Assembly (NCBI GenBank): GCA_946481095.1
Contig: CAMLML010000024.1
Coordinates: 1 to 56,377 of the forward strand
DNA: 56,377 nucleotides
Reading direction: 5' to 3'
Source: an uncultured Cellvibrio sp.
GTDB taxonomy: Bacteria; Pseudomonadota; Gammaproteobacteria; Pseudomonadales; Cellvibrionaceae
Shown: positions 9,631 to 54,252 of the stretch, piece by piece
Layout: every line of letters begins with the position of its first letter
Numbering within the stretch: position 1 is the first letter of the stretch
Notes under the pieces: model-generated
What the model saw: the letters and a program-made list of their open reading frames with translations, nothing else
What the model was told of the DNA's origin: nothing
Database searches by the model: none
Made by a program: the position numbers and the translations under genes

Positions 9631-9643
9631 GATATCTCTGGCT

Positions 9644-10694: not shown

Positions 10695-10699
10695 AATTA

Positions 10700-13024: not shown

Positions 13025-13025
13025 G

Positions 13026-13781: not shown

Positions 13782-13783
13782 GA

Positions 13784-17611: not shown

Positions 17612-17613
17612 TA

Positions 17614-18348: not shown

Positions 18349-18349
18349 C

Positions 18350-23700: not shown

Positions 23701-24409
23701 CCTGCTGCACCACATGTGTCAACTCATGCGCTAACAATCGTTTACCTTCTGTAGTATTGGGGGCATATTCACCAGACGCAAAAAATATATCGCTGCCAAC
23801 AGTAAACGCACGCGCACTTAATTGTTTGCAAAGTGCATCGGCGGCAGCATCGTTGTGAATACAAACGGAAGCAAAATCGTGACTGAATTGGGTCTCCATT
23901 TCACTGCGCACATCTTCCGGTAATTGAGTGCCCTGACCTTTTAAAGATTCGATTTGTTGTTCAACTTCAGCGCTCACACCGTTTTCATTTTCTGGATTTG
24001 CAGTTTCTGGCGCGGATGATTCTGTTGTAGCATCACTCGCAACATTGTGCATTTTTGCTATGGATTCATCCGGTAAACGTGAAATTTTTGTTTGCAGGGA
24101 TTGTGTGTTACCCAAGGTTTTTTCCGGCTGACTATTTCCGGGATTTACGGTTTCACAGGGCGTTGAATTATTGGCTGGTGAGCGACTGACGACCTCATCC
24201 GCAACACGATCAGCTTCCTGTTCATGTGTATCGCCCGGAGTACTAACACTTAATTTTGTTTGCAAATACGGCGCTGGCTGTAAGGTATTTTGTTCAGATG
24301 ATTTTTTCGCAACTTTTTTTGATGCCTGAGTAGAATCCTCAGCTACTTTTGAGCGATGAACATTATTATCAGATGAGGCTTTTTTACTTAATGGTTTCAC
24401 TGCAGACAT
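20771..24409 (-). CDS. DUF4157 protein with HELTH motif and long beta-repeat C-terminus, candidate eCIS cargo
   Basis: This 1212-aa protein has a disordered, charged N-terminus of about 160 residues containing LSVSTPGDTHEQEADRVADE, a stretch typical of eCIS-linked DUF4157 proteins. The DUF4157 domain follows at about residues 160-240, ending RLLAHELTHVVQQG with His228, Glu229 and His232 forming an HExxH zinc site. Residues 250-600 are not recognised. Residues about 620-1212 are a run of short beta-rich units with Gly-Asp/Asn turns (such as GFRAHGEATLSVPG). A very glycine-rich tract lies near residues 1090-1150. The gene follows the AAA+ ATPase, the common slot for eCIS-loaded proteins. Cargo status and peptidase activity are inferred. 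Confidence 0.85.
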   Translation of the reverse strand: MSAVKPLSKKASSDNNVHRSKVAEDSTQASKKVAKKSSEQNTLQPAPYLQTKLSVSTPGDTHEQEADRVADEVVSRSPANNSTPCETVNPGNSQPEKTLGNTQSLQTKISRLPDESIAKMHNVASDATTESSAPETANPENENGVSAEVEQQIESLKGQGTQLPEDVRSEMETQFSHDFASVCIHNDAAADALCKQLSARAFTVGSDIFFASGEYAPNTTEGKRLLAHELTHVVQQGSGVTRKIMREVTETSAGSGIFVGSDNGISYEFNSNESPGPKKLKISSVRVPDFKMDRHRDLYEATESEPLYVRRQERNTVQVRNWNRYFRATPVPISRIQNNTIDSNPTEFHVLQSTRVTNFFLFGNKRDLTKKFVLPFWDSRHTVAIPPLAGAASAIPADTAVAESEDDVDDSGATFQVDHRLEDQLGAESDGSQKAMIEDPQRNYELLERGANGTSGGLVDRYINERLRVAIQLFNDKGILSDYREIRSNYSVAFTNTISDSRPVPNENIFWSFAAISNGEHLNGFRELSPDDLARLAPESYAPKLFLSETGGVPKNAPEGAGPFEDIFPRVTPIGPLQITGDTASLEVNGYSAGSSRDTTPHAEYPNLFLYFQKLPVGIPGLGNNLFRIKRRDTVTRATSAAFNSLSLPGLSPIRVLDVDLHPERGFIARGKLLPSVPLFDRADIDVIVEGADIRVQKTFSTSEINVPSPFVVNHASVTLFASSQNGLGIEGDLGIEIENIGKCDIEASLSTGNGLRLSGRFNFEEGLFNGIDASVEASFYRQNIFDENDHGHWSVGGQVVIPSGKISGIESATVNLSYSDEEGFRAHGEATLSVPGVENGTIDITHNEEEGMIIAGEFNLRAGRGIRGGQISARVQEKPDGSGYAVSAHGEAQPDIPGINSNLIVDYNDGAFTAEVTADYSRGMLSGQIHAGVTNRTVNEDGTLAETASENNELVVFGDGELTIQIAPWLQGTAGVRFSPNGEITVIGRIGLPDELEIFARREINRSIFNIAVQAPIFPGIVAEVGGGLSATAGIGPGVIDQLTLQIEYNPAHEEDTHITGDAHLNIPANAGLRLSVRAGIGLGITGASATGGLDIGGTLGIEGAAEAGVHVDWTPATGLDITAELAVHAQPSFTFDIGGYVSVRALGFEVYDNRWEFASYTFGSDYRFGIRLPIHYHEGEPFDISTDDIVFEVPDIDTDQLLSGLIERIA

Positions 24410-37560: not shown

Positions 37561-39708
37561 TCAACAGAAATCAGGAATGACGGGAACCGCCATGGCTGAT
37601 GTTGCGGGCACAGCTGTAATTAAATCCGGCGCTGATGGAATGTGTTTGCCCTCTTCAATATGAATCGCCATCAACTCGGGTAATTGGTAAAGCTGCAAAT
37701 CCAGTTTTGGTGTCTCAGCCCATCCACTATTTTGTTGGTGATACAAATGCACATGACTCACCGATAACACACCAGGCGTGCGCGCAGCCATGGTTTTTAA
37801 TTCATTGACTTCCAGTTCGCGTCCCATGGGCCAACCCTTGCCGGTAAAACCACCGGGGGCCAAAGCCCACAAGCCTCGCAATAAATTTTTTTCAACTGCC
37901 TGAAAAGTTTCAACCAATGTCATAGGGTCAAGTACTTCAACACTGATTGAAAGTGCAACCGGTACAAATTGTGGGCTCAATACATAAAGTTCAGTGCCCA
38001 ACATTTTTCGTGATTCCAGATAACCAAACACATCTGCCAATAAACCCGCCGTAGGTTTGGGAGCAGAACCCAATGCAGGTTCTGCAGGTGGCATGACAAA
38101 AACACTGACAACGCCCGGGACTTTTTCACGCACTGCAGCCAGTGAATTACCTGGCATTAAACCGGGAATCACTTCTGCACGCGCTACTGCAACAATCGGA
38201 TTATCTTCTGCGAGTTGAATAAAATCAGATTGAGTCACTGCGCGATTACGATGGGACAATTCAGCAGGAATTCTTTTTTCTGCTTGCTCAACCGTTTCGG
38301 CATCCACACCACCCGTAATGGGCCAATCCTGATGCACTTTTAATTCATTATGATTTGCCGACAAAATTTGCTTGATACTGCTTACAGGTAAATTACCCTG
38401 GGCACCACCACCTGCCCGATAATAAGCAACACGAATTCGACTTTGCGGTGCAGGGCGCATACCACGAATACCATCACCAAAAATAACACTGCCTGATGCC
38501 GGATCAAATTGATAAACGCGATCATTCACACCGCAACCGGAAAAATGACTCACTTGTCGCCAGGTGACATAAACGCCCTGTTCACTCACTTGAATAATTA
38601 ATGATTGGGGATCAACCTGACGCGCTTTAATCTGTGCAACCTGACCTGCGCGACCATCACCCATTGCAATTACCTGATCACGTCCGATTTGCTGCGCGGC
38701 AATTTCAACAGCGTTGATGCACATAAAACCCAATTCAAATTGGGGATCATCCGGCGCTGTTAAACACAACCAGCACATAACAGAATCCGGATCTACATCA
38801 GCCGGAGATTCCGGTGCAGTGTTATTCACACCGGCATATTTTGGATCACGAGTATATTCAGAAGCCAATGATTTGAAATTTTTCGGAATTTTCAAACGCA
38901 CCACACCGGTTTTTCTTGCGCCCAATGAACTGTCTGCAATGACTTCCAGTGGTGTCAGTTCTGCTGTTTGCGACTGTGCCGAGTCCTGCCACAACAAATG
39001 CCAACGTAATTGTCGCGGTGGTAATTCAAGGGCCATATCACCTGGCTGATCCACCACAGGGGCCAAACCAATATTCAGAATTTTCCCGGACAAATTCTCG
39101 CGAATGGCTTCGCGATGCTTGAATAAACTTTTATCAGCAAGATGCAGCAACAAATAAAATTTTTTATCCAGCGATTTACCCAAATCTGGAACATCCTGAC
39201 CCAAATTAAAACTGCGCGGGCGAAAAGGAATAGTATTGTGACTATAAATTTCCTGCAGCTGATTCAATGTAATATTCATAGCATTCAATTCTTCGGCTGT
39301 AACCTGCTCCTTGATCATCAGCCTTAACAACAAAGGAGTAGGCTGTACTTCACCCTCTGTTGTAAATAATTGATTCGCACCTGATAAATTGGATTCCGAC
39401 GTTAATAGCGGCGGCAAAGTCGGCGTTTTTTGCAAAGATTGAATCGATACCAATCCTCTTGCAGCAATGGCAGGTCGCATCGGAATTTGTAATAAATTTA
39501 AAAATGCCTGACGCTGCCGCTCCGGAATTAAATTCGCACGGTAAATAATCGTTTCTGTCATCCATGCCATTAAATCCGTCAAGGCATATAAGGGATCACC
39601 TTCAACCAATTGTTGTAAATCCGGCAATTGTGAGAGCAGACGTTGTCTGGCCTCTTTTGCCAAATCATCAAAACGGCGATCATCCAATAATGTAATAGGT
39701 AGTGGCAT
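37561..39708 (-). CDS. Baseplate J-like protein (Afp11-like)
   Basis: This 715-aa baseplate wedge protein has the N-terminal hallmark DPLYALTDLMAWMTETIIYR and NLIPERQRQAFLNLLQIPMR (residues 38-80). The central part has SGSVIFGDGIRGMRPAPQSR and VAYYRAGGGAQGNLPVSSI, typical of baseplate J. GVDAETVEQAEKRIPAELSH and the AVTQSDFIQLA motif follow. It lies directly after gp25, as in other contractile systems, and its partner wedge protein is encoded next. Confidence 0.94.
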   Translation of the reverse strand: MPLPITLLDDRRFDDLAKEARQRLLSQLPDLQQLVEGDPLYALTDLMAWMTETIIYRANLIPERQRQAFLNLLQIPMRPAIAARGLVSIQSLQKTPTLPPLLTSESNLSGANQLFTTEGEVQPTPLLLRLMIKEQVTAEELNAMNITLNQLQEIYSHNTIPFRPRSFNLGQDVPDLGKSLDKKFYLLLHLADKSLFKHREAIRENLSGKILNIGLAPVVDQPGDMALELPPRQLRWHLLWQDSAQSQTAELTPLEVIADSSLGARKTGVVRLKIPKNFKSLASEYTRDPKYAGVNNTAPESPADVDPDSVMCWLCLTAPDDPQFELGFMCINAVEIAAQQIGRDQVIAMGDGRAGQVAQIKARQVDPQSLIIQVSEQGVYVTWRQVSHFSGCGVNDRVYQFDPASGSVIFGDGIRGMRPAPQSRIRVAYYRAGGGAQGNLPVSSIKQILSANHNELKVHQDWPITGGVDAETVEQAEKRIPAELSHRNRAVTQSDFIQLAEDNPIVAVARAEVIPGLMPGNSLAAVREKVPGVVSVFVMPPAEPALGSAPKPTAGLLADVFGYLESRKMLGTELYVLSPQFVPVALSISVEVLDPMTLVETFQAVEKNLLRGLWALAPGGFTGKGWPMGRELEVNELKTMAARTPGVLSVSHVHLYHQQNSGWAETPKLDLQLYQLPELMAIHIEEGKHIPSAPDLITAVPATSAMAVPVIPDFC

Positions 39709-39711: not shown

Positions 39712-40077
39712 TTAGATCTGCAATTGAAGTCCTAATTGAAGACTGTTTTGTTCACCTGTTTGTTTAATTTGATACAGCAAACGCAGTGTTACTTCATTTA
39801 ATGCCTGAGCTGTTTCAACACGCAAATTCTGCACAATAATTCTGGGTTCCCATCGTTGTATCGCTCGTAATGCCTGATCTGCAATTAATCGACGGGTAGT
39901 CTCATTATTGGGCTGATGGATAAATTGATTAAGCCCTGCACCAAATTCAGGACGCATCAAACGTTCACCTGGCGATGTCAACAAAATATTCCACAACACA
40001 TCACGCACACTGTCCTCGTCCCTGACCCACTCAAATCGGCCATTGGTAAAACCGGATAATGAAAAACTTGGCGCCAT
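39712..40077 (-). CDS. Baseplate wedge protein gp25-like (Afp9-like)
   Basis: This 121-aa protein has the gp25/GPW pattern DSVRDVLWNILLTSPGERLM followed by RPEFGAGLNQFI. In this family the EFGxGL motif caps the sheath start and nucleates its assembly. ATG at 40077 has AGAGG upstream. Size and position ahead of baseplate J are standard. Confidence 0.95.
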   Translation of the reverse strand: MAPSFSLSGFTNGRFEWVRDEDSVRDVLWNILLTSPGERLMRPEFGAGLNQFIHQPNNETTRRLIADQALRAIQRWEPRIIVQNLRVETAQALNEVTLRLLYQIKQTGEQNSLQLGLQLQI

Positions 40078-40088: not shown

Positions 40089-41777
40089 TTATTTACACAA
40101 CCTGGGCAACACCATAATCGCGTAAGGAATCCAGCGAAAAATAATGTTTAAAATATTCAACACAATCATTAATAAAATCATCGCGCAAATCGTAATAATC
40201 GGAATGCTGAAGCTGATACTGAATCCCATACAGGCACTCAAAGGCGATTTGGCTGCATTTGGCTTCATCTCCATAGTAGGAGACACCTTCATCATCAAAT
40301 CACTGATCGATTTCGGCGTTAAAAATGTCACACCTTTGGGAAGACCTTTGGTGATATCCGATAATTCCGGCAATTGAATAACACTCGGCCGCATCGCTAT
40401 AGGATCAAATGGATTGGCAACCGTGAATTCCATGGATGCTTTACCCCATTGCAAATGTTCACAGCCACAGTCATCGCGATATCGAACAAATGGAACAATA
40501 AAATAACGCTCACCCGCAGCCTGGGTATAACGTGGCAAGGGTAAATCTATCTCAATTAATTGATTGGTTTTTTCAGCGCGGAACAACATGGCTTCACGAA
40601 TATCTTCCGCCATGGATTTAGTCAGGTAAACGAAATGAGAAAAATCTGGTAACGGATTCCATTCCCCGGGTCTAATCTTATTTTCATTTTCAAGATGCAA
40701 TTTTTCTTCTTCAAGATACCAATCCATAATCGAAGCATAATGCTGGCTGATGTAGTCCAATAAATTACCTTGTTGAATATTTTGCTTTTTAATCCAGGCA
40801 TCAAACTCTGCAGGCTGATGATTCATTAAATCCATTTCATCCGGATTCAAGCCCTTTGACAATAAAGGTATGGATTGCAACAAACTACGTAATTTTTCGT
40901 TATCGTTAATACTGACATCAAAAATTTGATAGCGATGAATTAGCATGATCAACCAATTGGCCATAGCACGTTTTGGACGACCTGCATTGGTTTGCAAATA
41001 TTCTTTTGCAGACCAGGTAAAATGATCACAGGGATTTTTCACCAGTTCTGCTATGGTTCCTGTGCAATTACAGGGAGGGTTTTCGAATGACTCACCATCC
41101 CAACTACCGAATGGCCATTCCAGTTCAGCCATATAACCTGCTGCTGAAATTTCAGCGTTACCGGATTTGGCAAGATCAACCGGAATTTCCTGTGCATCTA
41201 TTTTTCCATTAAGCGGTAAATAACCATACAGAAGTGTGCGAGGTTTATCAGACTGTTTGACTATGTGTGTATGTAATGGATATGTTTGTTCCCCAGTGAA
41301 GCCAAGTGACTGATTGTTTTCCGATGCAGATTTCAATTTGATAATTGAATTGAATACTTTGTGTTTGCTATGGTCAGGATCGAATTTTTCATCGATGCTA
41401 TTAATATCTTTCCATCCTATGGCTTCACCATCACGCAATTGCCAGGTTTGCACCCTGCTACCATTTTTTTTACGCACCACAAATCCGGATGAAACAATAC
41501 TGCGCGGTGAAAAGGCCGGTTTGAACGGCACATCACAAACCAGTTCGCTGGCTAATACATAAAAAGTTCGGTGTAATGGCAAACGTAATCTGGTGCAATC
41601 ACTGCCAAACTTATCTTCCTGAATCCAGTTTTGTGCTGAATAACTTTTTAATAAACCGCGTGCAGATTCTTTTTGAAAAGATTCAATGAAATCTTCTTTC
41701 ATGTAGCGATGCAATACAGTGTAATCCTGAGCATCGGCATACCAGGGTGCTACAAATTCCGGTTTATGATTTACCAT
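40089..41777 (-). CDS. eCIS-operon protein with a hydrophobic C-terminal segment
   Basis: This 562-aa protein overlaps the spike gene by seven bases. The first 500 residues are soluble, with two cysteine pairs (PPCNCTG near residue 238 and DDCGCEH near residue 435). The last 45 residues are strongly hydrophobic: SISFSIPIITICAMILLMIV, then LNILNIIF and a second patch WIPYAIMVLP, ending LCK. This looks like one long helix or a hairpin anchor. There is no signal peptide. It sits between spike and gp25. It could anchor the particle to a membrane, or be a spike-loaded protein that enters target membranes. No family function is recognised. Confidence 0.75.
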   Translation of the reverse strand: MVNHKPEFVAPWYADAQDYTVLHRYMKEDFIESFQKESARGLLKSYSAQNWIQEDKFGSDCTRLRLPLHRTFYVLASELVCDVPFKPAFSPRSIVSSGFVVRKKNGSRVQTWQLRDGEAIGWKDINSIDEKFDPDHSKHKVFNSIIKLKSASENNQSLGFTGEQTYPLHTHIVKQSDKPRTLLYGYLPLNGKIDAQEIPVDLAKSGNAEISAAGYMAELEWPFGSWDGESFENPPCNCTGTIAELVKNPCDHFTWSAKEYLQTNAGRPKRAMANWLIMLIHRYQIFDVSINDNEKLRSLLQSIPLLSKGLNPDEMDLMNHQPAEFDAWIKKQNIQQGNLLDYISQHYASIMDWYLEEEKLHLENENKIRPGEWNPLPDFSHFVYLTKSMAEDIREAMLFRAEKTNQLIEIDLPLPRYTQAAGERYFIVPFVRYRDDCGCEHLQWGKASMEFTVANPFDPIAMRPSVIQLPELSDITKGLPKGVTFLTPKSISDLMMKVSPTMEMKPNAAKSPLSACMGFSISFSIPIITICAMILLMIVLNILNIIFRWIPYAIMVLPRLCK

Positions 41778-42406
41778 ACGTTCCCCGCTCCCGGTGTATA
41801 ACTGGTACCTACAACTGACGTGGCAATTAAGGTGTCACACTTGACCACACCCGAAAACTGACTCATGCCTGCATCCACTTTTACCATGCCTGCACTCACA
41901 TCAACTTGAGACGCTTCAACTTTTACTTTCATTGAACTGGTGATGCTGATGCCATCTGCAGACAACTTCACCTGATCACCGCTACGATCAATCGTAATTT
42001 CACCTGCACCCGAATCATCAATGGTAATGGTGTGACCCGCCGGTGTTTCAATTGTCACTTTGGGTGAACTGCTTTCATCCATAATCAATTTGGTTCCTCC
42101 CGGTGTGACAATCGCATAAATATCTTCAACAGCCTGCGCATCAGTTGGATGACTGCTACTGCCACTCCAGACTGATCCCAACACAATTGCTTCATCCGCT
42201 CGCAAAAAAGCCACAACCACAATCTCATCTATGCGCGGTAAAAAACTGATGCCGTAATTCTGCCCCGCACTGTTGCTCATACAACTGGCCCAGATATCCA
42301 ACTGATTCACCATCAGTCGCACCTGAACCCTTCCTCTTCCCTGCGAGTCCTGGTTTTCCAGCACTTTTGCCAGATGTAAATTTTGCAAACCCAAACTGTG
42401 TTCCAT
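41771..42406 (-). CDS. Spike tip protein, gp5/gpV-like beta-helix
   Basis: This protein is 211 aa from ATG at 42406, which shares bases with the previous stop (TAATG). A TTG at 42421 is an unlikely alternative. The N-terminus is the OB-fold of phage gpV/VgrG: QGRGRVQVRLMVNQLDIWAS, FLPRIDEIVVVAFL and AIVLGSVWSGSSSHP. After residue 105 come short hydrophobic-polar repeats of a triple-stranded beta-helix (VTIETPAGHTITIDDSGAGE). No PAAR-type tip domain is visible in it, and no separate PAAR gene was found in the operon. Confidence 0.9.
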   Translation of the reverse strand: MEHSLGLQNLHLAKVLENQDSQGRGRVQVRLMVNQLDIWASCMSNSAGQNYGISFLPRIDEIVVVAFLRADEAIVLGSVWSGSSSHPTDAQAVEDIYAIVTPGGTKLIMDESSSPKVTIETPAGHTITIDDSGAGEITIDRSGDQVKLSADGISITSSMKVKVEASQVDVSAGMVKVDAGMSQFSGVVKCDTLIATSVVGTSYTPGAGNVW

Positions 42407-43491
42407 TAATTTTGATTCCAACTGCTGCGTGTAAATTTCAAACGGGTTTTAAAACCATTGCTGGTATCAAATAAATGTTGCGTGTGTACTATTTGATACT
42501 TGCCATTCAATCTTGCCGAAGCACCGGATACATTTATTTGTCCACCTGTATTTAAACCAGCATTACCACTGGTGATTAATTCGCCTGTTAAAAACTCACC
42601 GGATCTTTTTTGAAACTCCGCCCTTGCCCAACTATTGGCTTCAGATTGATTACGCGAAAAAGGATAAGCCAATAAATCTTCACTACCCCACCCGAGGTTA
42701 TTTAATAATTGTTTGGCATCCTGACCCGATTCACTTTGTGAATCTGCTTCGCTTGCATCTGTTTGTTCATCTGCTTCCAAATTAAAACCTTTAACCTGTG
42801 CAGATAAATATTGATGATTCAAATCAGCCGTAATGCGCAACAAACTCACACCACTTTGAGTATTAATATCGACAGCTTGTGCGCTCTGCTCTTCTGCTTT
42901 TATCCGAAGATTATTGGCGTGATTACGCACCGCAATTCCGTAAGGCCACAGAATCCGCTGTAAAAATGCCAGATTGGTTTCATTCAGTTGATGCCATACG
43001 CCTGTATCACTGCTCACTTGAATGTCTCCTGATAAATTGGCATCCGATAAAACCGTTTGCACCAGATCATTCACACTGACAGATTCAAACACACGACTCT
43101 TGCGTTGTTTGGCTAACTTATGTAATCCATCTTCCATCAACAACACCAACCGCGGTGCACCTTGTCCGTAGACTTCTTCTATCGCGGTAATATCGCCTGC
43201 AAAAATCAAACTATCACTGGCCAATATTTCAATTTGATCGCCATGTGCAATATCCTGAAATGCATAACCCGATTCACCTGACTCATCGGTGTTTCCCCAA
43301 TTCACCAAACGCAATTCAGCATGTGACATACCACTGAACGGTAAATTTACGCGCATAAAAATTACCGCCTGTTCCATATCCGCACGTTGATTTCCGTTAA
43401 TACGGATATGCGGTCTGGCACTGATTAAAATTGCATTTTCTTCAGTCAACTTCCAACCTCTTGCGTCTTTCTTCTGCCACTTCCAATTCAT
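42406..43491 (-). CDS. Spike hub protein, gpD/gp27-like
   Basis: This 361-aa hub protein resembles phage late-control protein D and the N-terminal part of VgrG. Features are AHGDQIEILASDSLIFAGDI, TAIEEVYGQGAPRLVLLMED, SVNDLVQTVLSDANLSG and LAFLQRILWPYGIAVR. In AFP/PVC the hub and spike are one polypeptide (Afp8). Here they are split over two genes that overlap at the stop-start. A 25-residue Ser/Asp/Glu-rich linker lies near residue 245. The start at 43491 lies inside the DUF5908 gene. Confidence 0.88.
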   Translation of the reverse strand: MNWKWQKKDARGWKLTEENAILISARPHIRINGNQRADMEQAVIFMRVNLPFSGMSHAELRLVNWGNTDESGESGYAFQDIAHGDQIEILASDSLIFAGDITAIEEVYGQGAPRLVLLMEDGLHKLAKQRKSRVFESVSVNDLVQTVLSDANLSGDIQVSSDTGVWHQLNETNLAFLQRILWPYGIAVRNHANNLRIKAEEQSAQAVDINTQSGVSLLRITADLNHQYLSAQVKGFNLEADEQTDASEADSQSESGQDAKQLLNNLGWGSEDLLAYPFSRNQSEANSWARAEFQKRSGEFLTGELITSGNAGLNTGGQINVSGASARLNGKYQIVHTQHLFDTSNGFKTRLKFTRSSWNQN

Positions 43492-43729: not shown

Positions 43730-44578
43730 TCATTTCCACTTAAATGCTCCCGGAATGCTGGACCCCAAAGATGCCGATGCTCCCACACCAAAACCAATTT
43801 CCGGTGAACCGACTCGGGATGACATTTTTTCCAATTCCAGATTGGGAACTGAAATGGCTTGTCGGCCAATTGCACGCACATCTTCAATGCCATTAAATAA
43901 AGCTATGTCGCGCCAATTTTTGGGATTTTTTCCATTAGCAGATGCAGCTTGTGCAGCACTGGTTGATGCATTGGCCGATGAAAATGTCGGAATATTCCGC
44001 TGACTCGCTTGAATGTTTTCATCGCGTAAAAATTGATAGGCATCTTCTTTCAGAGTCAAAGCAACAGTTGCACGTAAAGGAATTCCTTCGGGTGAAAAAA
44101 AATCCAGTGTTTCGTTGTAACTGCTCACCATGCCTTTGAAAATAAAAGAACCCCACTCAAACTGGCAGCGTTTGGGAACTTTGTGACCATTGGAATCCGG
44201 TGCCAATTCAGGATTCATAAATGCATCAGCGATTTTTTTAGTCAGTAATCGAACATCACTATTGGCTTGATGATTACGTGCGGTGTGTGCGCCTGCAGAA
44301 TTGTTTTCTGTTCCGCCATTACTGGAATTGGCAACCAATTCACCCGCAATGCTGGTATCGAAAAAAAGTTGTACTGATAAAGAGGATTCACTTTTATCAA
44401 TATACTGCGGTGCCGGTGAAGGTGCAGTGCCAGTCGATCGTTCAGCCGCCATGGTGTTGGAATAGGTAATACGCAAACTGTTGGGATTAAATTGCACCGG
44501 AATCCAATCCGCTTCCGGTGAACGATCTTCACCATTCATGGGTACCAGTCTTGCGCGGGTAATTTGAATATCACTCAT
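43730..44578 (-). CDS. Tube-baseplate adaptor with LysM-like end (Afp7-like)
   Basis: This 282-aa protein has the N-terminal pattern WIPVQFNPNSLRITYSNTMA, then SLSVQLFFDTS and FEWGSFIFKGMVSSYNETLD with FFSPEGIPLRATVALTLKED. This is the CIS tube/adaptor family represented by Afp7. Near residue 215-245, NPKNWRDIALFNGIEDVRAI is the remnant of a LysM motif. The family joins tube and spike hub in the baseplate. It overlaps tube 2 (ATGA) and precedes the repeat-bearing gap. The last 35 residues are Gly/Ser-rich. Confidence 0.9.
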   Translation of the reverse strand: MSDIQITRARLVPMNGEDRSPEADWIPVQFNPNSLRITYSNTMAAERSTGTAPSPAPQYIDKSESSLSVQLFFDTSIAGELVANSSNGGTENNSAGAHTARNHQANSDVRLLTKKIADAFMNPELAPDSNGHKVPKRCQFEWGSFIFKGMVSSYNETLDFFSPEGIPLRATVALTLKEDAYQFLRDENIQASQRNIPTFSSANASTSAAQAASANGKNPKNWRDIALFNGIEDVRAIGRQAISVPNLELEKMSSRVGSPEIGFGVGASASLGSSIPGAFKWK

Positions 44579-45066
44579 GGTGTATTCTCCTCAATTACCA
44601 ACACCAATCCTTCATGCATTAATTGCAATTCTTCAATCGCTATTTGACTGGAAGTTGCAGACAAATCCGGCCCCTTGAATTTAGTTGCCATGGCTTTGAT
44701 TATTTGCCAACGTAATACCGGTTTTACTGCGGTGTTATCAACATAAGCCTGATCATAGATATCGATAAAACCCGTCATACGAAATGCATAATTAGCCTGG
44801 CGGGTACTGACATCAAACCATTTATATAAATCATTCACGCGTGTTATTCCACGCTTTAAAGTAATTGCAGAAAATTTTGTATTACCTGCCAACTGCACTT
44901 CGCCCCAGTTACGACCACCTTCCTGTAATGATTTGGGAGTCATGGTAAATTCAAATCCGGATACTTCACTAAAAGCACCTGAACAAATGGGAGATTGACT
45001 GGCACCACTTTCCGGATACAAAGTCACCACAAAACGAAAAGGGACAAATTCAGCAGCATCAGCCAT
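44575..45066 (-). CDS. Inner tube protein 2 (Afp5/gp19-like)
   Basis: This 163-aa protein of the phage T4 gp19 tube family has FRFVVTLYPESG, CSGAFSEVSGFEFTMTPKS, AITLKRGITRVNDLYKWFD and the closing IAIEELQLMHEGL. It differs clearly from tube 1. In other eCIS a second tube type forms the tube initiator next to the baseplate. Its place beside the Afp7-like adaptor fits that. The start overlaps the sheath-like gene by eight bases. Confidence 0.93.
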   Translation of the reverse strand: MADAAEFVPFRFVVTLYPESGASQSPICSGAFSEVSGFEFTMTPKSLQEGGRNWGEVQLAGNTKFSAITLKRGITRVNDLYKWFDVSTRQANYAFRMTGFIDIYDQAYVDNTAVKPVLRWQIIKAMATKFKGPDLSATSSQIAIEELQLMHEGLVLVIEENTP

Positions 45067-46539: not shown

Positions 46540-47001
46540 TCAGGACTGCTCAATGTATTCGACAGAAAGCACCAGCTCTTCCATAGCAACATCACCACCA
46601 CCTTTTGCGGTCAAACTGGGGCCCGTCCATTTAATGGGTGTGACGCCTTTTAATGTCCAGGTTACTACCGGTTCTGCATCGCGCTGTTCATTTAATAATT
46701 TCACTGTGACTGAATCTTTTTTCGCTTTCAGATCACCGGCGCGCGCTGCATTTAACCAGTCAAAAACATTTTGTGTGCCAATCACACCACGCTTCAAAGT
46801 GACATCGCCACTTTTGTTGATGCCCAATACTTTGGTGACATAATTCACCTTGGCATTGCCTGCACGATATTCCGCTATAGTGACTTCAGCATTCAATCCG
46901 GAGACTTCGGAAAAACCACCGACAACATCTTCTTCATCAATACCTTCAATACCAATTAAAAAATTAAACGCTGAGTAGGGTGTTGCACGTTGAGTTGCCA
47001 T
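46540..47001 (-). CDS. Inner tube protein 1 (Afp1-like)
   Basis: This 153-aa gp19-family tube subunit has YSAFNFLIGIEGIDEEDVVG, GFSEVSGLNAEVTIAEYRAG, DVTLKRGVIGTQNVFDWLNA and the end AMEELVLSVEYIE. It is probably the main tube protein because it follows the sheath gene and has its own strong GGAGAA ribosome-binding site, unlike the coupled neighbours. Length is typical. Confidence 0.96.
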   Translation of the reverse strand: MATQRATPYSAFNFLIGIEGIDEEDVVGGFSEVSGLNAEVTIAEYRAGNAKVNYVTKVLGINKSGDVTLKRGVIGTQNVFDWLNAARAGDLKAKKDSVTVKLLNEQRDAEPVVTWTLKGVTPIKWTGPSLTAKGGGDVAMEELVLSVEYIEQS

Positions 47002-47018: not shown

Positions 47019-49517
47019 TCAGGCATCAGCTGTTTTTTGACCAATTCTGAAAATAACAAACTCCGCAGGTGTCAGTGGTGCCACGCCCACTTCACAAACC
47101 AGGCGTCCATTATCCAAATCGTTTTGACTCATAGTAGTTCTATCACAGCGAACAAAATAAGCTGCTGAAGTTTTGCTACCTAAAAGCCGACCATTCTTCC
47201 ATTCGTTAAATAAAAAACTTTCTATAGTCGTCACTACATTGGCCCACAACCTTTCTCCGTTAGGTTCAAACACGGCCCACTGCGTACCTTTTTCGATAGA
47301 GCGTTCCAGATATAAAAAATAGCGACGCACATTGACATATTTCCATTCAGGATCACTGGATAAAGTTCTGCCACCCCACACCTGATGCCCACGACCACTG
47401 AATGATCGCAAACAATTAATGCCGCGTGGATTTAATAATTCCTGCTGGAATTTGTTGATGTTTTGTGTAAAACGCAAAGCGCCAAAAACCGGTGTATTCG
47501 CTGGCGCTTTATGCACACCGCGCTCAACATCCGTGCGTGCGTAAATACCTGCCATAAAACCGGAAGCGGGCAAATTAATGGTTTCTTTTTCACCGGTTGG
47601 ATCAGACGTGACAACCCAGGGTGCATAAAGTGCGAGACGTGAATTATCAAAATTGTTACGGAAATTTTGAATTTCCGATAAAGACATATCTTCACGCGTA
47701 TCGATCAATCCAAAACGATAACGCATTTTCACGCAGTGCTTTTCCAATTCCACTGCAATCGCCTGATGACGGTTTGCATCAATAACAGCTGAGGGTGTTG
47801 CCACAATTGAAACATCTTCAACACTTTCCAATGCAGAAAAACCGGTTGCACCTTTATCATCGATTTCACCGGCATAATCTATTGCGGCGGGGAAATCACC
47901 GTCTGTACCACCCGCAAGCAAAATGACATGTCGGGGATCATCCAGTCTGGTGTCGGGGTTCAATATTTTTTTAAGCGATTCTCCTTGCCCCACTTCATCT
48001 ATAAAAAGTTTATACAGATCGTCCAATAATTGTGATGGGGTGGCATCATCCACAATACAAACAATAGGAATGGTTAAACGATCCAATGTTTTTTCGAGAT
48101 TTCTATCAAGAACTTTGCCAATAAAGTTGGGTTGATTTTTATCTAGCGATAGAACTTGTGTAATAAATACCGGTTCGCCAACACCAGGAGTTCCTTCAGT
48201 ATCTATTTTTGTTTTTTTACGACGGATTGCCTGCAAGGAAAAATTGCGCTGTAACTTCACACTTTTCACTGCACCAGGAAAAGCACTGAATACCGCCAGA
48301 GGGATAACTTCTGTTTCAGGTAAAAGCGTAATATTAATTTCCCAAGTGTTATCACCCAAAGCATAAACAAATTTATCTTTTGCTCTGGCATTAATAACGG
48401 CGGGCGCATCGTATTTCAAATCGTACAAATCATCCGGCGTCAACACCTGCCCATCTGTAACATCTACACCGTTCAAGGTAATTTTTCCTGCTGCAGGTAA
48501 ATCCGATACTGTGACACTGCCAGCCGGTCGCACAGGAATACTGCGTGCTATAGCAAGATCTTCAACACCCTTGCTGACAATGATCAGACTCGGTTTTACA
48601 ACAGGTGTAGTATTGATTTTCGTAAACTCACTGCCTGCTGCATTGAGGGTTCCGCGAAATCGTGTCAATGAATCTGTTTCTGTAATGAGATGAGACGTAA
48701 GATCCAAATCTGTGTTCAATACCAACTCAGCACTGGTATTGTCAGCCAAACTTCCCGTTACCGGTTTAATCACTGATGATTGTTTAAATTCAAACGGCAG
48801 GGCAGCAAAGGTAGCCGCTGCTATTCCGGTACCAAAAGCGCTGACATTCACTTTGTTTTCAACAGTGTCATTTGCATTAACAACACTGGCTTTTGTTGCT
48901 GCTAAAAATACAAACCCATCCGATGTTTTCTTCGCCAATATCTGAATTTTTTTCAGTGGAAATTTGGTACCTTCATGCGAAACAACTCCGGTAAATGTGT
49001 TTGGCATGTTGGTAATAGTCAATAAACCTTCTGCGTTGTTGCTGATATCAGACAGTTTATTAAAGCTGCCCGAGCGAAATAAACTTTCCTGATCCTGCCA
49101 GATAACAGACAAATCAAGATTGCCGCCTGATCCGGGATATCGCGCAAGAAAATCTATTTTTCCTGTAGTGTTAGTCGCCGCCACTCCTGCACTACCACCA
49201 GAACCATATTGATCCGTATCATTACCACCGGAAATAATACGTGTCATATAAAGCTGTTTGCCGCCATTTTCAAAAAATGCGCGTGCAGCCAAGGCCGTAT
49301 AATTCAATCGTGACTCACTCCCGAATGTTAATGATTGGGGATCACCAAATATTTTTTCAAACTCACCATAACTGGTAAGTACTTCCGGTGTACCCCTTAT
49401 GGGACCAAATCGTGTTGGCCCCACCATGCCACACACACTTGTGCCTACCCCTTCTATGGATTTTGATCGAAAACTCACTTCTTCAACAAAAACACCGGGT
49501 GCTAGATATTCAGACAT
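47019..49517 (-). CDS. Contractile sheath protein (Afp2-4-like), enlarged
   Basis: This 832-aa sheath subunit begins EYLAPGVFVEEVSFRSKSIE and VGTSVCGMVGPTRFGP. The C-terminal half has GFMAGIYARTDVERGVHKAP, LNPRGINCLRSFSGRGHQVW and YLERSIEKGTQWAVFEPNG. It ends AEFVIFRIG, the strand exchanged between subunits. Afp sheath proteins are about 350-450 aa, so an insert of roughly 350 residues (about 150-490) decorates this one. There is one full sheath gene here instead of the three in AFP. AAGGAG lies upstream of ATG 49517. Confidence 0.97.
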   Translation of the reverse strand: MSEYLAPGVFVEEVSFRSKSIEGVGTSVCGMVGPTRFGPIRGTPEVLTSYGEFEKIFGDPQSLTFGSESRLNYTALAARAFFENGGKQLYMTRIISGGNDTDQYGSGGSAGVAATNTTGKIDFLARYPGSGGNLDLSVIWQDQESLFRSGSFNKLSDISNNAEGLLTITNMPNTFTGVVSHEGTKFPLKKIQILAKKTSDGFVFLAATKASVVNANDTVENKVNVSAFGTGIAAATFAALPFEFKQSSVIKPVTGSLADNTSAELVLNTDLDLTSHLITETDSLTRFRGTLNAAGSEFTKINTTPVVKPSLIIVSKGVEDLAIARSIPVRPAGSVTVSDLPAAGKITLNGVDVTDGQVLTPDDLYDLKYDAPAVINARAKDKFVYALGDNTWEINITLLPETEVIPLAVFSAFPGAVKSVKLQRNFSLQAIRRKKTKIDTEGTPGVGEPVFITQVLSLDKNQPNFIGKVLDRNLEKTLDRLTIPIVCIVDDATPSQLLDDLYKLFIDEVGQGESLKKILNPDTRLDDPRHVILLAGGTDGDFPAAIDYAGEIDDKGATGFSALESVEDVSIVATPSAVIDANRHQAIAVELEKHCVKMRYRFGLIDTREDMSLSEIQNFRNNFDNSRLALYAPWVVTSDPTGEKETINLPASGFMAGIYARTDVERGVHKAPANTPVFGALRFTQNINKFQQELLNPRGINCLRSFSGRGHQVWGGRTLSSDPEWKYVNVRRYFLYLERSIEKGTQWAVFEPNGERLWANVVTTIESFLFNEWKNGRLLGSKTSAAYFVRCDRTTMSQNDLDNGRLVCEVGVAPLTPAEFVIFRIGQKTADA

Positions 49518-49554: not shown

Positions 49555-50424
49555 TTAAAGTTTCACAATAATCGACTGACTGCCAGCAGTTTTTATAACG
49601 GGGTTATCGCCCGGTTTTATTTGAAAACTGATCGAGTTGTGAAAATCATTACCACCGGCAATATCTTTAATTGTGACGCCACTCAAGCTATCCGGGTCAG
49701 GTAACTTGTTTTTGATCGCACAGTTTTTTATAAGCAAACTGGCTGCAAAATTTTCTACTAATGGATCTGCATCCAATGCTGGGAATTCATTTAATGGAAT
49801 TAAAAAATCACCAAATTTATTCGCTTGTGCACGAAATTCCAAAACTTTGGGTGGACTACCACCATCAGCAGGAATTTCAATCGTCAGAATCAGTATTGCC
49901 CATGGCAAATTCGCTCCTGATTCCAATTCAAGATGACCTCTCAAACTACCGGCAGTGGTGACTCTGGTGGCACCAATACTTTTATAAAGAGAAATAGAAT
50001 TTATTTTCGGATTGTCGACATTTAATGGCTGCAAATTTAAATCGAACCATCTTGCGTTGTAATGTCGGGAACTATCTTCCAGCATGCCTTCAATGCTATT
50101 TATTGCAGACGGCGGACGTTCTAAATCAATATCAGTAACGGCAAGATTTTCTTCGTTAATTTCGATACCAGGATTATCAATACGCATCTGATCTTTTGAT
50201 TTTTGCCGATTAAATTGCAAATGATCAGGCAACAAAATCGCAATGCGGTTACCTTTATTTAATATTTGATATGATTGCTTGGGCGTTACTGTGGTAACAG
50301 TCAACTGCAAATGTTTCTCTATACCCGGCTTTTCATCCCATCCCTGCCCCGTAGCGTCATAAAGCCATACAAAATTACCGGCATGAAACCAACAGGTTTC
50401 GACTAATTGTTTTTTAACTTCCAT
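49555..50424 (-). CDS. Unrecognised eCIS-operon protein, beta-rich
   Basis: This 289-aa protein overlaps the cap gene by 11 bases. Residues about 165-230 (TAGSLRGHLELESGANLPWA, then FRAQANKFGDFLIPLNEFPA) resemble a carboxypeptidase-regulatory-like beta sandwich. The N-terminal part (ETCWFHAGNFVWLYDATG) is not recognised. There is no signal peptide or membrane segment. Its place between cap and sheath suggests a tail-terminator or sheath-tip role. That is inference from gene order. Confidence 0.75.
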   Translation of the reverse strand: MEVKKQLVETCWFHAGNFVWLYDATGQGWDEKPGIEKHLQLTVTTVTPKQSYQILNKGNRIAILLPDHLQFNRQKSKDQMRIDNPGIEINEENLAVTDIDLERPPSAINSIEGMLEDSSRHYNARWFDLNLQPLNVDNPKINSISLYKSIGATRVTTAGSLRGHLELESGANLPWAILILTIEIPADGGSPPKVLEFRAQANKFGDFLIPLNEFPALDADPLVENFAASLLIKNCAIKNKLPDPDSLSGVTIKDIAGGNDFHNSISFQIKPGDNPVIKTAGSQSIIVKL

Positions 50425-51049
50425 TTTTCAACTCTCCATAATTGAAATAAGGAAGCACTACACTGGACACTAATTTTCCAGGTTCAATTTCCGGTACAGG
50501 TAACATGCGAATGGTTTTTACTATATAAGGAACGGATAAAATGTAGTTGCCCGGTAGCGAATCCCATATGCGTAACAAATCTTCTGTACTCATTTCTTCA
50601 GGTTGAATTTGTACCACTTCGTCAACTGTCCAATGTGGATCGTAGGTTTTTAAATGTGAAAACCCCAATTCCAATGCTGACCCTATTTGTTGCAATGCCC
50701 AAGCAGTCAACACAGCTTCACTTTCACCATTGGATGTCCAGGCCAATAAAAAAATATGCAAGTTGACAGGCAGCTCAGGCTGCGGCGGTTTATTTGATGA
50801 ACGCGAAGGCAAATAACGATTTCGACCAAAAGGATCGACTGAAACACGGTGCAAATAAATTCCAATGCTATTGGTTTTAACCGAACCATTACCAACAGAC
50901 AAACTGGGCGGAGATTTCAATTCAACAGTGCCCAAAATACTGACATCCGGCTGATCCAAAACCAGATCAAGCTGATCATTCTTCATGCCCAGGATTAAAA
51001 AATCCTTTAGCGCATGCAGAACACCTCGCACTGCTTTGTATGATGCCAA
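50414..51049 (-). CDS. eCIS cap/terminator protein (DUF4255, Afp16/Pvc16-like), TTG start
   Basis: This 211-aa DUF4255 protein is the first gene of the eCIS operon. Features are VDPFGRNRYLPSRSSNKPPQ, ELPVNLHIFLLAWTSNGESE and QIGSALELG. The end is VPYIVKTIRMLPVP. The family terminates tube and sheath growth. The start codon is TTG at 51049, set by AGGAG seven bases upstream (AGGAGATTTCTC then TTG). No in-frame ATG fits. In AFP and PVC the cap gene is last, whereas here it is first. Confidence 0.92.
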   Translation of the reverse strand: MASYKAVRGVLHALKDFLILGMKNDQLDLVLDQPDVSILGTVELKSPPSLSVGNGSVKTNSIGIYLHRVSVDPFGRNRYLPSRSSNKPPQPELPVNLHIFLLAWTSNGESEAVLTAWALQQIGSALELGFSHLKTYDPHWTVDEVVQIQPEEMSTEDLLRIWDSLPGNYILSVPYIVKTIRMLPVPEIEPGKLVSSVVLPYFNYGELKNGS

Positions 51050-51083
51050 GAGAAATCTCCTGAAAGATTATGCGAACTTGTAC

Positions 51084-51101
51084 AAAGCAATGCTTATGCC
51101 A
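51084..51101 (-). promoter_or_regulatory. Sigma-54 (-24/-12) promoter of the eCIS operon
   Basis: On the minus strand the sequence reads TGGCATA-AGCA-TTGCTTT. The GG (51100-51099) and GC (51088-51087) are exactly ten bases apart, as sigma-54 requires. It lies about 40 bp upstream of the TTG start of the cap gene and downstream of a sigma-54 activator gene. Predicted transcription start is near 51075. Confidence 0.85.
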
Positions 51102-51220
51102 GTAAAAAAATTAATCTGAAAATTAATTCATAGACCGTCAGGATCTTGGTAAAAACAAATAAAGTCTGGATATAAATTTATGCGCGATTTAATGAACAAT
51201 GAATATTGTTCCAATTCGAT

Positions 51221-51236
51221 GGGTAACAATTTACCC
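51221..51236. promoter_or_regulatory. Palindrome GGGTA-N6-TACCC, putative activator site 1
   Basis: The sequence is GGGTAACAATTTACCC, a perfect inverted repeat about 129 bp upstream of the -24 element. Its twin is 41 bp further upstream, about four helical turns, so both lie on the same DNA face. This spacing and distance suit enhancer sites for the adjacent sigma-54 activator. No footprint evidence is available. Confidence 0.65.
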
Positions 51237-51260
51237 GGCGGGTTAGAAAAATGTGACAGG

Positions 51261-51278
51261 CGGGTAAAAATATACCCG
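51261..51278. promoter_or_regulatory. Palindrome GGGTA-N6-TACCC, putative activator site 2
   Basis: The sequence is CGGGTAAAAATATACCCG, the same half-sites and 6-base spacer as site 1, about 170 bp upstream of the eCIS -24 element. An overlapping GGTAAATACC follows (51278-51287). It lies 20 bp beyond the activator gene stop. It could alternatively be a weak terminator hairpin for that gene, but no T-run follows the stem directly. Confidence 0.6.
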
Positions 51279-51297
51279 GTAAATACCAGTATCCAAC

Positions 51298-52779
51298 TTA
51301 CTGGCGATATTGGCATTTATCAATTTGATATTTTTGTAATAGTTTTCCCAGCGCTCGCCTTTCCTTGCCTGCTATTTTTGCAGCCAGCGTGACATTACCT
51401 TGTGTGGCTTTCATCACCTGCGTTAAGTAATTTTTTTCGAATGATTCAATTGCTATGGCTTTTGCGTCTTGAAAACTGGGTGGGCTATCCATGCTTTCAA
51501 TATCCGGTACATTTGGCATATTGTTCAACGAATCAATATGACTTGCATTGTCAAAATGCATATCCAGATACTTGCCTGTTGACAACAAAAAGGATCGCAA
51601 CAAAGTATTTTCAAATTCACGAACATTACCGGGCCATGATTGTTGTTGTAAATAATGCAAACTTTGTTGCGAAAGCAATTTGATTGGCAAGTCATAATCT
51701 TTGGCAAAACGCTGCATTAAACTTTCTGCAATTATTGGTATATCCGGTTTTCTATCGCGTAATGGCGGCATAGTGAGGCCTAATACATTTAAACGAAAAA
51801 AAAGATCTTCCCTGAATATTTTTTTGTTAGATAAACATTTCAAATCGGCATTGGTGGCTGCAATAATCCTGACATTTGCTCGTAACATTTTCTTCGAACC
51901 AACAGGCCGATACTCTTGCGTTTGTAAAAAACGTAACAACGCCGCCTGCGCTTTCGTGCTCAAGCTATCCACTTCATCAAGAAACAAACTTCCGCCATTG
52001 GCGACTTCTACCAAACCTTCCTTGTTTTGTTTAGCATCGGTAAATGCGCCTTTTTCGTGGCCAAAAAGTTCACTTTCCAATAAGTCATCCGGAATGGTAG
52101 CGCAGTTAATAGGTACAAACGGACAAGCCGCACGGCTGCCCAAATAGTGAATTGCACGCGCCGCATTTTCTTTGCCAGTACCGGTTTCTCCTTGAATTAA
52201 TACAGTCGCTTGATGCCTAGCTATTTTTTCAATCAAACATAAAACCTGCATAAAATTGTCAGAGGTTCCACTTAAATTTAATGCTGAAAATCTGGAAATC
52301 AATTCTGTTTTTTGCAGATCCGTATCAAACACCGCGTCTGTTTTTATATAAGACTGTAGACGCATGGATAATTCACTGGATGAACAAGGCCAGCAAATGA
52401 AATCGTCAAACAATTTAATTAGATCTAACCCTTCACAAGCGGAAGATGCAGGAATCAGACACAGATTGATTTTTTCAGGAAATTTTTGTAGATGCTGCAA
52501 GAATGCAGATTTGAATCGGGGATCCAGTAATGATTCCCGGTTACAGACAAAAATTACCAGCTGCGAAGTGTCAGGTATTACAGGTTGAATAAACCTTTCT
52601 CGAGACAATTGTTGAATAGACAAAGTCATCTTTTTCAAACAATTAATAATTCGCCTGTCTTCAATAAAATCAGGCTTGATGGTGCCGGGTTGAATAGCCG
52701 CATACCCTCGTGTTTCAAGACTACGCCGCTCTACAGAAAGACAAGGCAATGGAATATCAACAAGTGTGATTTGTTTCAT
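51298..52779 (-). CDS. Sigma-54-dependent activator (NtrC family) for the eCIS locus
   Basis: This 493-aa enhancer-binding protein has an N-terminal part (1-150) ending in a receiver-like DDFICWPCSSSELSMRLQSY. The AAA+ domain has Walker A GETGTGKE (about residue 200), LFLDEVDSLSTKAQAALLRF and RLNVLGLTMPPLRDRKPDI. The sigma-54-contacting loop is GAFTDA rather than the canonical GAFTGA. The C-terminus is a Fis-type helix-turn-helix (QGNVTLAAKIAGKERRALGK). ATG at 52779 has AAGGACAG upstream. It lies between two -24/-12 promoters facing away from each other. Control of both is the natural inference. Confidence 0.93.
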   Translation of the reverse strand: MKQITLVDIPLPCLSVERRSLETRGYAAIQPGTIKPDFIEDRRIINCLKKMTLSIQQLSRERFIQPVIPDTSQLVIFVCNRESLLDPRFKSAFLQHLQKFPEKINLCLIPASSACEGLDLIKLFDDFICWPCSSSELSMRLQSYIKTDAVFDTDLQKTELISRFSALNLSGTSDNFMQVLCLIEKIARHQATVLIQGETGTGKENAARAIHYLGSRAACPFVPINCATIPDDLLESELFGHEKGAFTDAKQNKEGLVEVANGGSLFLDEVDSLSTKAQAALLRFLQTQEYRPVGSKKMLRANVRIIAATNADLKCLSNKKIFREDLFFRLNVLGLTMPPLRDRKPDIPIIAESLMQRFAKDYDLPIKLLSQQSLHYLQQQSWPGNVREFENTLLRSFLLSTGKYLDMHFDNASHIDSLNNMPNVPDIESMDSPPSFQDAKAIAIESFEKNYLTQVMKATQGNVTLAAKIAGKERRALGKLLQKYQIDKCQYRQ

Positions 52780-53027: not shown

Positions 53028-53045
53028 TGGCTTATCTATTGCTTC
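53028..53045 (+). promoter_or_regulatory. Sigma-54 (-24/-12) promoter of the divergent peptidase operon
   Basis: The sequence is TGGCTTA-TCTA-TTGCTTC, with GG (53029-53030) and GC (53041-53042) ten bases apart. The -12 half TTGCTT is identical to that of the eCIS promoter. Predicted start near 53054 leaves about 30 bases before the GTG at 53084 but only nine before the ATG at 53063, which favours the GTG as start codon. Confidence 0.75.
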
Positions 53046-53083
53046 ACTGTACCGATTAATTCATGACAAAAAGGACATCACCG

Positions 53084-53359
53084 GTGGCAGAAGATCCCCT
53101 ATCAGAAAATAATATTAAAGCTATTGCCAATGAAATCACCCACTACCTGAATCAGCATCAGTTTGCTGCTGATACAGTTGAGGGCATCTGCCATTGGTGG
53201 ATCAGCAAACAGAGAATTGAAGAAGAACAAAAACGCGTATTGGCAGCATTGGATTATTTATTGCAAAAAGAATTAATTAGTAAAAGACAATTACCTGATG
53301 GCTCTTTGTTGTATTCATCACAAGCCATTCAACAAGATGATGAGGCGCCAACACACTGA
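53084..53359 (+). CDS. Small unknown protein ahead of the cysteine peptidase
   Basis: This protein is 91 aa from GTG at 53084 (MAEDPLSENNIKAIANEITH), with AAGGA eight bases upstream. ATG at 53063 would add seven residues but lacks a site and leaves almost no leader. It is helical and acidic. The layout of residues 20-85 (HWWISKQRIEEEQKRVLAAL, then DYLLQKELISKRQLPDGSLL) resembles a small winged-helix with a beta hairpin. There is no signal peptide. It is 38 bases from the peptidase gene, so it is probably co-transcribed. It could be an adaptor or inhibitor of it. No family is recognised. Confidence 0.75.
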   Translation: MAEDPLSENNIKAIANEITHYLNQHQFAADTVEGICHWWISKQRIEEEQKRVLAALDYLLQKELISKRQLPDGSLLYSSQAIQQDDEAPTH

Positions 53360-53397: not shown

Positions 53398-54252
53398 ATG
53401 GCAAATATTCATGGTTTTGGTTTGGGCTGGCACCGCGATTTACCGGACATACGGGACAGCTCTCAAGAATCAGATGAAGTGTGTAATATTTTGGTGAAAT
53501 CCAATCGGGTAAAAGCGGTCAAGAAAAAACTGCCAAAAAAAATTGATTTACGTGCATGGTGCTCACCGATTGAGGATCAGGGTGCTCTTGGTTCATGTAC
53601 TGCACATGCAGGTGTTGGCATGATGGAGTATTACGAACGTCGCACCTCGGGCAAACACCTGGATGCTTCACGTTTATTTTTGTACAAAGTCACACGGCAA
53701 TTATTAGGTTTCAAAGGTGATGATGGAGCTTACTTGCGGTCCACTATGAAAGCCATGGTGTTGTTTGGTGTTCCACCTGAAAAATATTGGCCCTACAAGC
53801 CGGATAAATTTAATGATGATCCAGACAGTTTTTGTTTTGCATTTGCGCAGAGTTATAAATCCATCAAATATTATCGACTGGATCCAGCCGGGCGTACTCC
53901 GGAAAACATTCTGTCAGAGGTGAAAAAAAGTTTGGCGGCCGAATTACCTGCCATGTTTGGTTTTTCTGTTTACAGTTCCATACCCGCCATAGGTGAAGGC
54001 ACTGGCGACGTACCTTACCCCAAACGAGGCGATAGACTCGAAGGTGGGCATGCAGTACTGGCTGTAGGTTATGACGATGATAAAAAAATCGATGGTGAAA
54101 CAGGTGCTATCTTAATCCGCAACTCATGGGGAACCCGCTGGGGCGATAAAGGCTATGGCTGGCTGCCTTATAAATATGTTTTAAATGGATTGGCAGATGA
54201 TTTCTGGTCTTTGGTCAGAGCAGATTTTGTAAACACGGATTTATTCAATTAA
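53398..54252 (+). CDS. Papain-family (C1) cysteine peptidase
   Basis: This 284-aa peptidase has all four catalytic positions: Gln61 and Cys67 in IEDQGALGSCTAHAG, His218 in LEGGHAVLAVGY, and Asn242 in ILIRNSWGTRWGDKGYGW. There is no signal peptide and only a short prosegment (first about 45 residues, with HRDLPDIRD), so it is made in the cytoplasm. AAGGAG lies upstream of ATG 53398. It is the second gene after the divergent sigma-54 promoter. C1 peptidases of this type occur near eCIS loci. Cargo status here is inferred from shared regulation and could instead be a processing role. Confidence 0.93.
   Translation: MANIHGFGLGWHRDLPDIRDSSQESDEVCNILVKSNRVKAVKKKLPKKIDLRAWCSPIEDQGALGSCTAHAGVGMMEYYERRTSGKHLDASRLFLYKVTRQLLGFKGDDGAYLRSTMKAMVLFGVPPEKYWPYKPDKFNDDPDSFCFAFAQSYKSIKYYRLDPAGRTPENILSEVKKSLAAELPAMFGFSVYSSIPAIGEGTGDVPYPKRGDRLEGGHAVLAVGYDDDKKIDGETGAILIRNSWGTRWGDKGYGWLPYKYVLNGLADDFWSLVRADFVNTDLFN

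Follow-up and report, generated by a model that had tools for sequence, protein, structure and literature searches.

We wanted to understand how the operon for an extracellular contractile injection system (eCIS) is switched on in an uncultured Cellvibrio sp. To our knowledge, the timing and mode of eCIS particle production in bacteria are largely unknown. The stretch of DNA analysed here (56,377 bp, further called the window) carries the following genes of such a system:

50414..51049, minus strand: cap protein with a Pvc16_N domain (E 1.8e-24), opening the eCIS operon; TTG start, AGGAG upstream
47019..49517, minus strand: eCIS sheath protein (PF04984, PF17482)
46540..47001, minus strand: eCIS tube protein (PF06841)
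44575..45066, minus strand: second tube protein (PF06841)
43730..44578, minus strand: CIS_tube family protein (PF19266)
42406..43491, minus strand: baseplate hub, GPD (PF05954)
41771..42421, minus strand: Phage_base_V protein with an OB domain, likely the spike (PF04717)
39712..40077, minus strand: gp25 baseplate wedge protein (PF04965)
37561..39708, minus strand: Baseplate_J protein (PF04865)
24426..26477, minus strand: AAA ATPase (PF00004), presumably resembling Pvc15
20771..24409, minus strand: protein with an eCIS_core domain (PF13699, E 4.8e-31)

Genes for sheath, tube, hub, spike, baseplate, cap and AAA ATPase stand in one cluster, and these domains bear out the first-pass annotation, which had called the locus an eCIS operon. 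The TTG start of the cap gene behind a GGAG-type ribosome-binding site is common to the window and to two related loci, L001 and L055 (by eye in L055).

Upstream of the cap gene there is an interval of 248 bp (51050-51297), which runs exactly from the stop of an activator gene to the start of the cap gene. In and beside it we located:

51298..52779, minus strand: sigma-54 activator (bEBP) of 493 aa, with a receiver-like part (residues ~1-145), an AAA+ domain with GAFTDA and a Fis-type HTH (GKERRALGKLLQKYQID)
51101..51086, minus strand: TGGCATAAGCATTGCT, predicted -24/-12 sigma-54 promoter of the eCIS operon, with GG-N10-GC and counterparts in relatives
51221-51236, no strand: GGGTAACAATTTACCC, promoter-proximal candidate activator site, starting 135 bp upstream of the -24 element
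51262-51277, no strand: GGGTAAAAATATACCC, distal candidate activator site, 176 bp upstream of the -24 element

The -24/-12 consensus of sigma-54 promoters is TGGCACG-N4-TTGCW. TGGCATAAGCATTGCT has the exact GG-N10-GC spacing that had been claimed for it, agrees with 10/12 consensus positions and lies 36 bp before the start codon (TTG) of the Pvc16-type cap gene. It was joint best among 257 GG-N10-GC occurrences on both strands of the window; the two others with 10/12 (37220, minus strand, and 20572, plus strand) were both inside open reading frames. A looser -24/-12 pattern gave 43 matches in the window with 36.6 expected, so the promoter taken by itself tells little. Two GGGTA-N6-TACCC palindromes, described earlier as lying 41 bp or about four turns apart, were exact at both places, with 41 bp from centre to centre (3.9 turns). 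They are the sole exact copies in the 56,377 bp, and 100 dinucleotide shuffles contained none. When up to two mismatches were allowed, we obtained 13 matches against 8.9 expected; therefore, solely the exact pair is remarkable. Their upstream placing had been described correctly, but the distances of 129 and 170 bp needed a small revision, as we measured the centres at ~127 and ~168 bp upstream of the 5' end of TGGCATAAGCATTGCT.

Judging from this arrangement and its recurrence in other genomes, we consider it very probable that these 248 bp truly form a sigma-54 enhancer-promoter region. The adjacent activator would bind the palindromes (core GGGT-N8-ACCC) 100-200 bp upstream of the start and, once bound, form an AAA+ ring. 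Looping of the DNA would then lead to an open complex at the -24/-12 promoter, and the eCIS operon would be switched on from the cap gene onward.

The recurrence was first assessed with the cap protein. Scanning genome contigs yielded 27 loci, of which L001 (Cellvibrio sp. UBA8526, 72%) is nearest, and viral contigs gave two cap relatives (46 and 44%). L001 has the same activator-cap order and carries CCGGGTATTTTTTTACCCGG and the promoter TGGCATAAGGCTTGCT; promoter counterparts were also observed in L055, L056 and others. In the family of the window (Cellvibrionaceae), 18/144 genomes had a cap match, and we scanned L001 together with the fetched stretches of the other 17. An activator relative adjoined the cap gene in 11/18. 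All 11 of these loci have a -24/-12 element scoring at least 9/12, and exact GGGT-N8-ACCC stands upstream of the promoter in 10 of them, while the eleventh (L062) has it with a mismatch. The palindromes proposed in the first-pass annotation are thus present in close relatives. The fetched stretches of the other six loci lacked an activator relative, and an exact palindrome was likewise absent within 500 bp of their cap genes; one of these loci (L068) has a promoter-like match. For control we used 30 eCIS regions without a nearby activator (24 contig loci and 6 family loci; L019 and L026 were excluded for too little upstream DNA). A -24/-12 element scoring at least 9 was present in three of them and an exact palindrome in one (L002, with both elements and no activator within 10 kb). 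PF04552 (sigma-54) was detected in 11/11 related genomes tested.

The motif itself had to be shortened. The motif does recur in relatives, but the core conserved in their upstream regions is GGGT-N8-ACCC. Tried as a general motif, the GGGTA form misses most relatives, and by itself it tells nothing, as in 7/10 genomes it was not commoner than its reversed control.

L056 (genome G032) has a site and a promoter at its eCIS cap gene, but its 19.8-kb stretch contains no activator relative. The cap gene of this genome lies at 0.88 Mb, and the best activator relative at 4.06 Mb, together with a small gene and a site-promoter pair of its own. A second GAFTDA activator, L133, lies at 0.98 Mb, ~100 kb from the eCIS. 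Either the 4.06-Mb relative or L133 may serve this eCIS.

In 9/11 activator-cap loci of Cellvibrionaceae, the activator gene is divergent from an operon whose first gene encodes a protein of ~90 aa and whose next gene is the cap gene. The small gene is instead divergent in the window, L001 and L055, where it has its own -24/-12-like site. The corresponding features of the window are:

53063..53356, plus strand: predicted winged-helix protein of 98 aa, the module partner, which precedes the cap gene or a type VI secretion (T6SS) cluster in many relatives
53028..53043, plus strand: TGGCTTATCTATTGCT, second -24/-12-like site, preceding the divergent small gene and like-placed in L001 and L055
52826..52837, no strand: GGGTAACTACCC, short palindrome upstream of the activator, with a spacing unlike the conserved motif
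53398..54252, plus strand: papain-like C1 protease, encoded behind the small gene, with 82% identity to its L001 counterpart

The -24/-12-like site of the small gene scored 9 in the window, 9 in L001 and 10 in L055 (of 12). We tried GGGTAACTACCC as an enhancer for this divergent gene; a search allowing two mismatches found no counterpart in L001 or L055. The protease gene may share the sigma-54 control; tblastn did not find it in L055. The small protein matched no Pfam or NCBIfam family. Its AlphaFold model (mean pLDDT 74) has the winged-helix order of elements. Structure comparison gave weak matches, the best with E 0.038 and none reaching 0.001; winged-helix proteins were numerous among the first 50. 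Judged by its gene neighbourhoods, the predicted winged-helix protein of ~90 aa is part of the sigma-54 module, a member that the first-pass annotation did not have.

We also performed a search in which the small protein was the query and no DNA motif was used. Matches were found in 8/390 genomes of the order and 13/369 of the class, which gave 7 and 12 loci without G001. A -24/-12 element scoring at least 9 was present in 12/12 class loci, and exact GGGT-N8-ACCC in 8/12. By tblastn, nine of the 12 were recognised as eCIS loci through their cap or sheath and one as a T6SS locus (L105), with L111 and L113 assigned to neither. The fetched stretch contained an activator relative in 8/12 and none in L105, L110, L112 and L113; three of these four genomes (G829, G885 and G871) have a relative elsewhere.

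We then combined 31 regions, namely 8 small-gene loci of Cellvibrionaceae, the 7 order and 12 class loci, and the cap promoters of the window, L001, L055 and L056. L066, a near copy of L065, was excluded, and L086, a weak match with neither element, was retained. The -24/-12 element was present in 29 regions (not at score 9 in L081 and L086), exact GGGT-N8-ACCC in 24 (not in L062, L080, L086, L103, L105, L106 and L108) and both in 23. In 200 rounds of dinucleotide shuffling the means were 2.8 promoters, 0.15 palindromes and 0.03 regions with both (maxima 7, 2 and 1); the 31-region counts are not to be read as probabilities, as the loci are related and the window itself is included. GGGT-N8-ACCC ranked top of 5,376 (256 x 21) gapped 4-mer palindromes with its 24 regions, and the next palindrome, shifted forms of it aside, reached 7.

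The geometry was also similar. Of the 25 loci that have a promoter and a site (at most one mismatch), 19 have their nearest site beginning 68-94 bp before the -24 element. A second site is often present at 154-186 bp. The usual place at ~80 bp is not kept in the window (135 and 176 bp), L001 (208 bp) and L055 (204-245 bp), where the gene order is changed as well. The palindromes are conserved dyad sites roughly 100-200 bp upstream, as is required of a UAS.

The small gene adjoins the sites in most regions, and for 19/31 regions it was itself the search query. Given also its modelled winged-helix fold, the palindromes might be operators of the small protein, acting as repressor or co-activator, and not sites of the sigma-54 activator. 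We regard this as unlikely. Positions of ~-100 and ~-180 fit enhancers of an activator better than a blocking operator. Moreover, at L140 (genome G028) a related activator lies beside a pair of GGGTAAAAAATTACCC and promoter, and a tblastn search of the 16 kb detected no small gene. The HTH of the activator also differs in L103, L106 and L108, where the repeat is GGG-N8-CCC, although this co-change counts for little because it concerns three G+C-rich loci and GGG-N8-CCC occurs in 7/31 regions. Binding by the activator is the reading that we prefer.

The site and -24/-12 element at L140 stand before an operon of 453, 219, 402 and 362 aa, whose proteins had no match to the eCIS or T6SS queries. 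The three loci with the altered HTH belong to an eCIS clade with GAYTDA activators, and their upstream repeats, 2 bp shorter, are a weak observation in G+C-rich DNA.

A composite pattern of site and promoter gave 12 matches in 10/143 family genomes, and the reversed pattern gave none. Seven matches were at eCIS loci and one at the split activator-small locus of G032, which makes 8/12 at genes of the module, and one was at L140. The remaining three were inside an open reading frame (G078) and before porin- and transporter-like genes (the pair G096:C2/G108). These three matches without explanation, and the 3/30 control regions with a -24/-12 element, are what one can say for the idea that the promoter and palindromes of the window are chance matches, or that they serve the activator's own regulation alone. 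Against it stand the zero of the reversed pattern in 143 genomes and the joint recurrence of both elements, with similar geometry, in many genomes and before two types of machine. Furthermore, two of the three control matches (L002 and L027) come from genomes in which the small protein has a match (G002, where an in-frame stop interrupts it, and G010). We find chance, or a purely autoregulatory role, highly improbable, and we retain the enhancer-promoter region.

L002 (a Tepidiphilus MAG) has its site and promoter at the cap gene, and its activator relatives and the interrupted small-protein match lie on other contigs. In L027 (a Rhodospirillales MAG) the small gene stands directly before the cap gene (by eye), with a 12/12 promoter. 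In the class of G010, 2/385 genomes had a small-protein match, one being the known locus and one marginal (E 5.5e-4).

The adjacent activator had been described as NtrC-type. This holds only in the broad sense, because the usual phospho-acceptor is lacking from the receiver-like domain. The protein has the domains Sigma54_activat (PF00158, E 3.4e-63) and HTH_8 (PF02954, E 8e-7). The AAA+ domain has the Walker A motif of bEBPs, GETGTGK, and the Fis-type HTH has GKERR..GK, both invariant in 13 aligned rows. The sigma-54 contact loop is the variant GAFTDA (for GAFTGA) in 13/13 rows, and in farther module activators the loops GAYTDA or GAYTGA and, in the HTH, GKDRR were also seen. The activator was below every NCBIfam cut-off among the 25 families listed, and in the plasmid collection 17 records each matched merely 70-222 bp of its gene.

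In the structure model, residues 1-145 follow the beta-alpha order known from receivers (confidence being low for residues 12-39), and the first structure matches of the whole model were NtrX, NtrC1-like, NtrC4, FleQ and LuxO. Such a fold would suit classical two-component control, in which a histidine kinase phosphorylates the receiver. However, the acceptor place after beta-3 is occupied by Cys79 in the window activator and in its three nearest metagenome relatives, and Trp-Pro-Cys replaces the receiver Lys-Pro in 10/11 rows (Trp130-Pro-Cys in the window), as far as these places can be matched through the model. The acceptor Asp and conserved Lys of an NtrC response regulator are both missing from the window activator. 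An Asp is kept at the acceptor place in 1/11 domain-bearing rows (L060) and occurs one residue on in two, and the activators of L001 and L055 have no receiver-like domain. In NorR, the same loop change (G266D) frees the protein from its regulatory domain, as stated in the available text (PMC2941729). The window activator is unlikely to be of the phosphorylation type, because key receiver residues are missing, the domain is absent in close relatives and the loop has this NorR-freeing change. The Asp of L060 and the second activator L133 made us slightly less confident in the enhancer-promoter reading and somewhat more willing to consider a kinase, which we still find quite improbable.

In the preferred reading, the switch would be set by the level of the activator or by the small winged-helix protein as its partner, and probably not by phosphorylation, because the receiver-like domain has no usual phospho-acceptor and the loop is GAFTDA. 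This is the less certain part of the proposal. A Desulfovibrio survey, in its available part, lists GAFTDA among natural variants that are expected to keep activity (PMC4641369). DVU2106 from that work, a single-component bEBP, likewise has GAFTDA, but its reported targets are different, namely cell division operons (PMC4641369). The window activator resembles NtrC, NtrX and NtrC1 in fold and in the layout of receiver-like part, AAA+ and Fis-type HTH, and it differs from them in the absent receiver residues, in the loss of the domain in close relatives and in the GAFTDA loop.

Beyond what had been annotated, the predicted sigma-54 module is also placed before type VI secretion clusters. In L080, L082, L083, L084, L085 and L105 the small gene stands before genes for a TssB-TssC fusion, Hcp, TssF and TssG. 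This assignment comes from Pfam on single proteins of L085 (TssB-TssC fusion), L080 (Hcp) and L083 (TssF, TssG), from tblastn for L105, from the translations of L082 and from ORF sizes alone for L084. The promoter was present in 6/6 of these loci and the exact palindrome in 4/6. L082 and L083 have an activator relative directly beside the small gene; in G458, G480 (in-frame stop), G871 (loop GAYTGA) and G274 the relatives lie 15 to 43 kb off on the same contig. A tree of 33 activator rows placed the module activators from eCIS and T6SS loci together in one group of 28 (100/100), with five other activators of the same genomes outside it. L133 and L140, beforehand labelled 'other', were inside. 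The tree was rooted at midpoint, several long branches were flagged, and L127 and L139 were omitted. The sigma-54 enhancer-promoter layout proposed at the outset is thus supported by relatives, with the small winged-helix gene and the T6SS clusters as likely amendments.

These data suggest a wider scheme, in which one portable cassette (GAFTDA activator, GGGT-N8-ACCC pair, -24/-12 promoter and small winged-helix partner) would govern both eCIS and TssB-TssC-fusion T6SS in different Proteobacteria, phosphorylation having been given up and the winged-helix protein setting the switch. We put this forward tentatively and lean slightly against it as a whole; it lost ground because one relative (L060) retains the acceptor Asp.

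Control of T6SS by sigma-54 and a bEBP is known from VasH. In P. aeruginosa, Sfa2 and RpoN control the H2-T6SS (PMC8855297). The likeness is that a contractile injection machine is switched on by sigma-54 and an activator linked to its cluster; the predicted system described here additionally involves an extracellular CIS, a defined palindrome, which is not mentioned in the available part of that paper (PMC8855297), and a winged-helix partner. The regulators reported for eCIS are GerE/LuxR-type, BTAD and RfaH (PMC8213781). Their genes likewise lie beside eCIS operons, but they are not sigma-54 activators, and the word 'sigma' has no occurrence in the main text of that survey (PMC8213781). Sigma-54 control is thus already known for T6SS, and for eCIS we found no study of it in the titles and abstract openings of the open-licence literature searched. 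A defined cis code with its activator in many genomes predicts that eCIS expression depends on rpoN. The site-promoter code may further serve as a search pattern for more operons under the same control, and the shared module would connect the regulation of the two machines, eCIS and T6SS.

A cluster of flagellar/export genes adjoins the eCIS cluster at 478-18390 of the window. It contains genes for FliP, FlhA, FlhB, FliR, FlgE/F/G types, FlgH, FlgI, FlgA, FliF, an ATPase and a sigma-70-family factor.
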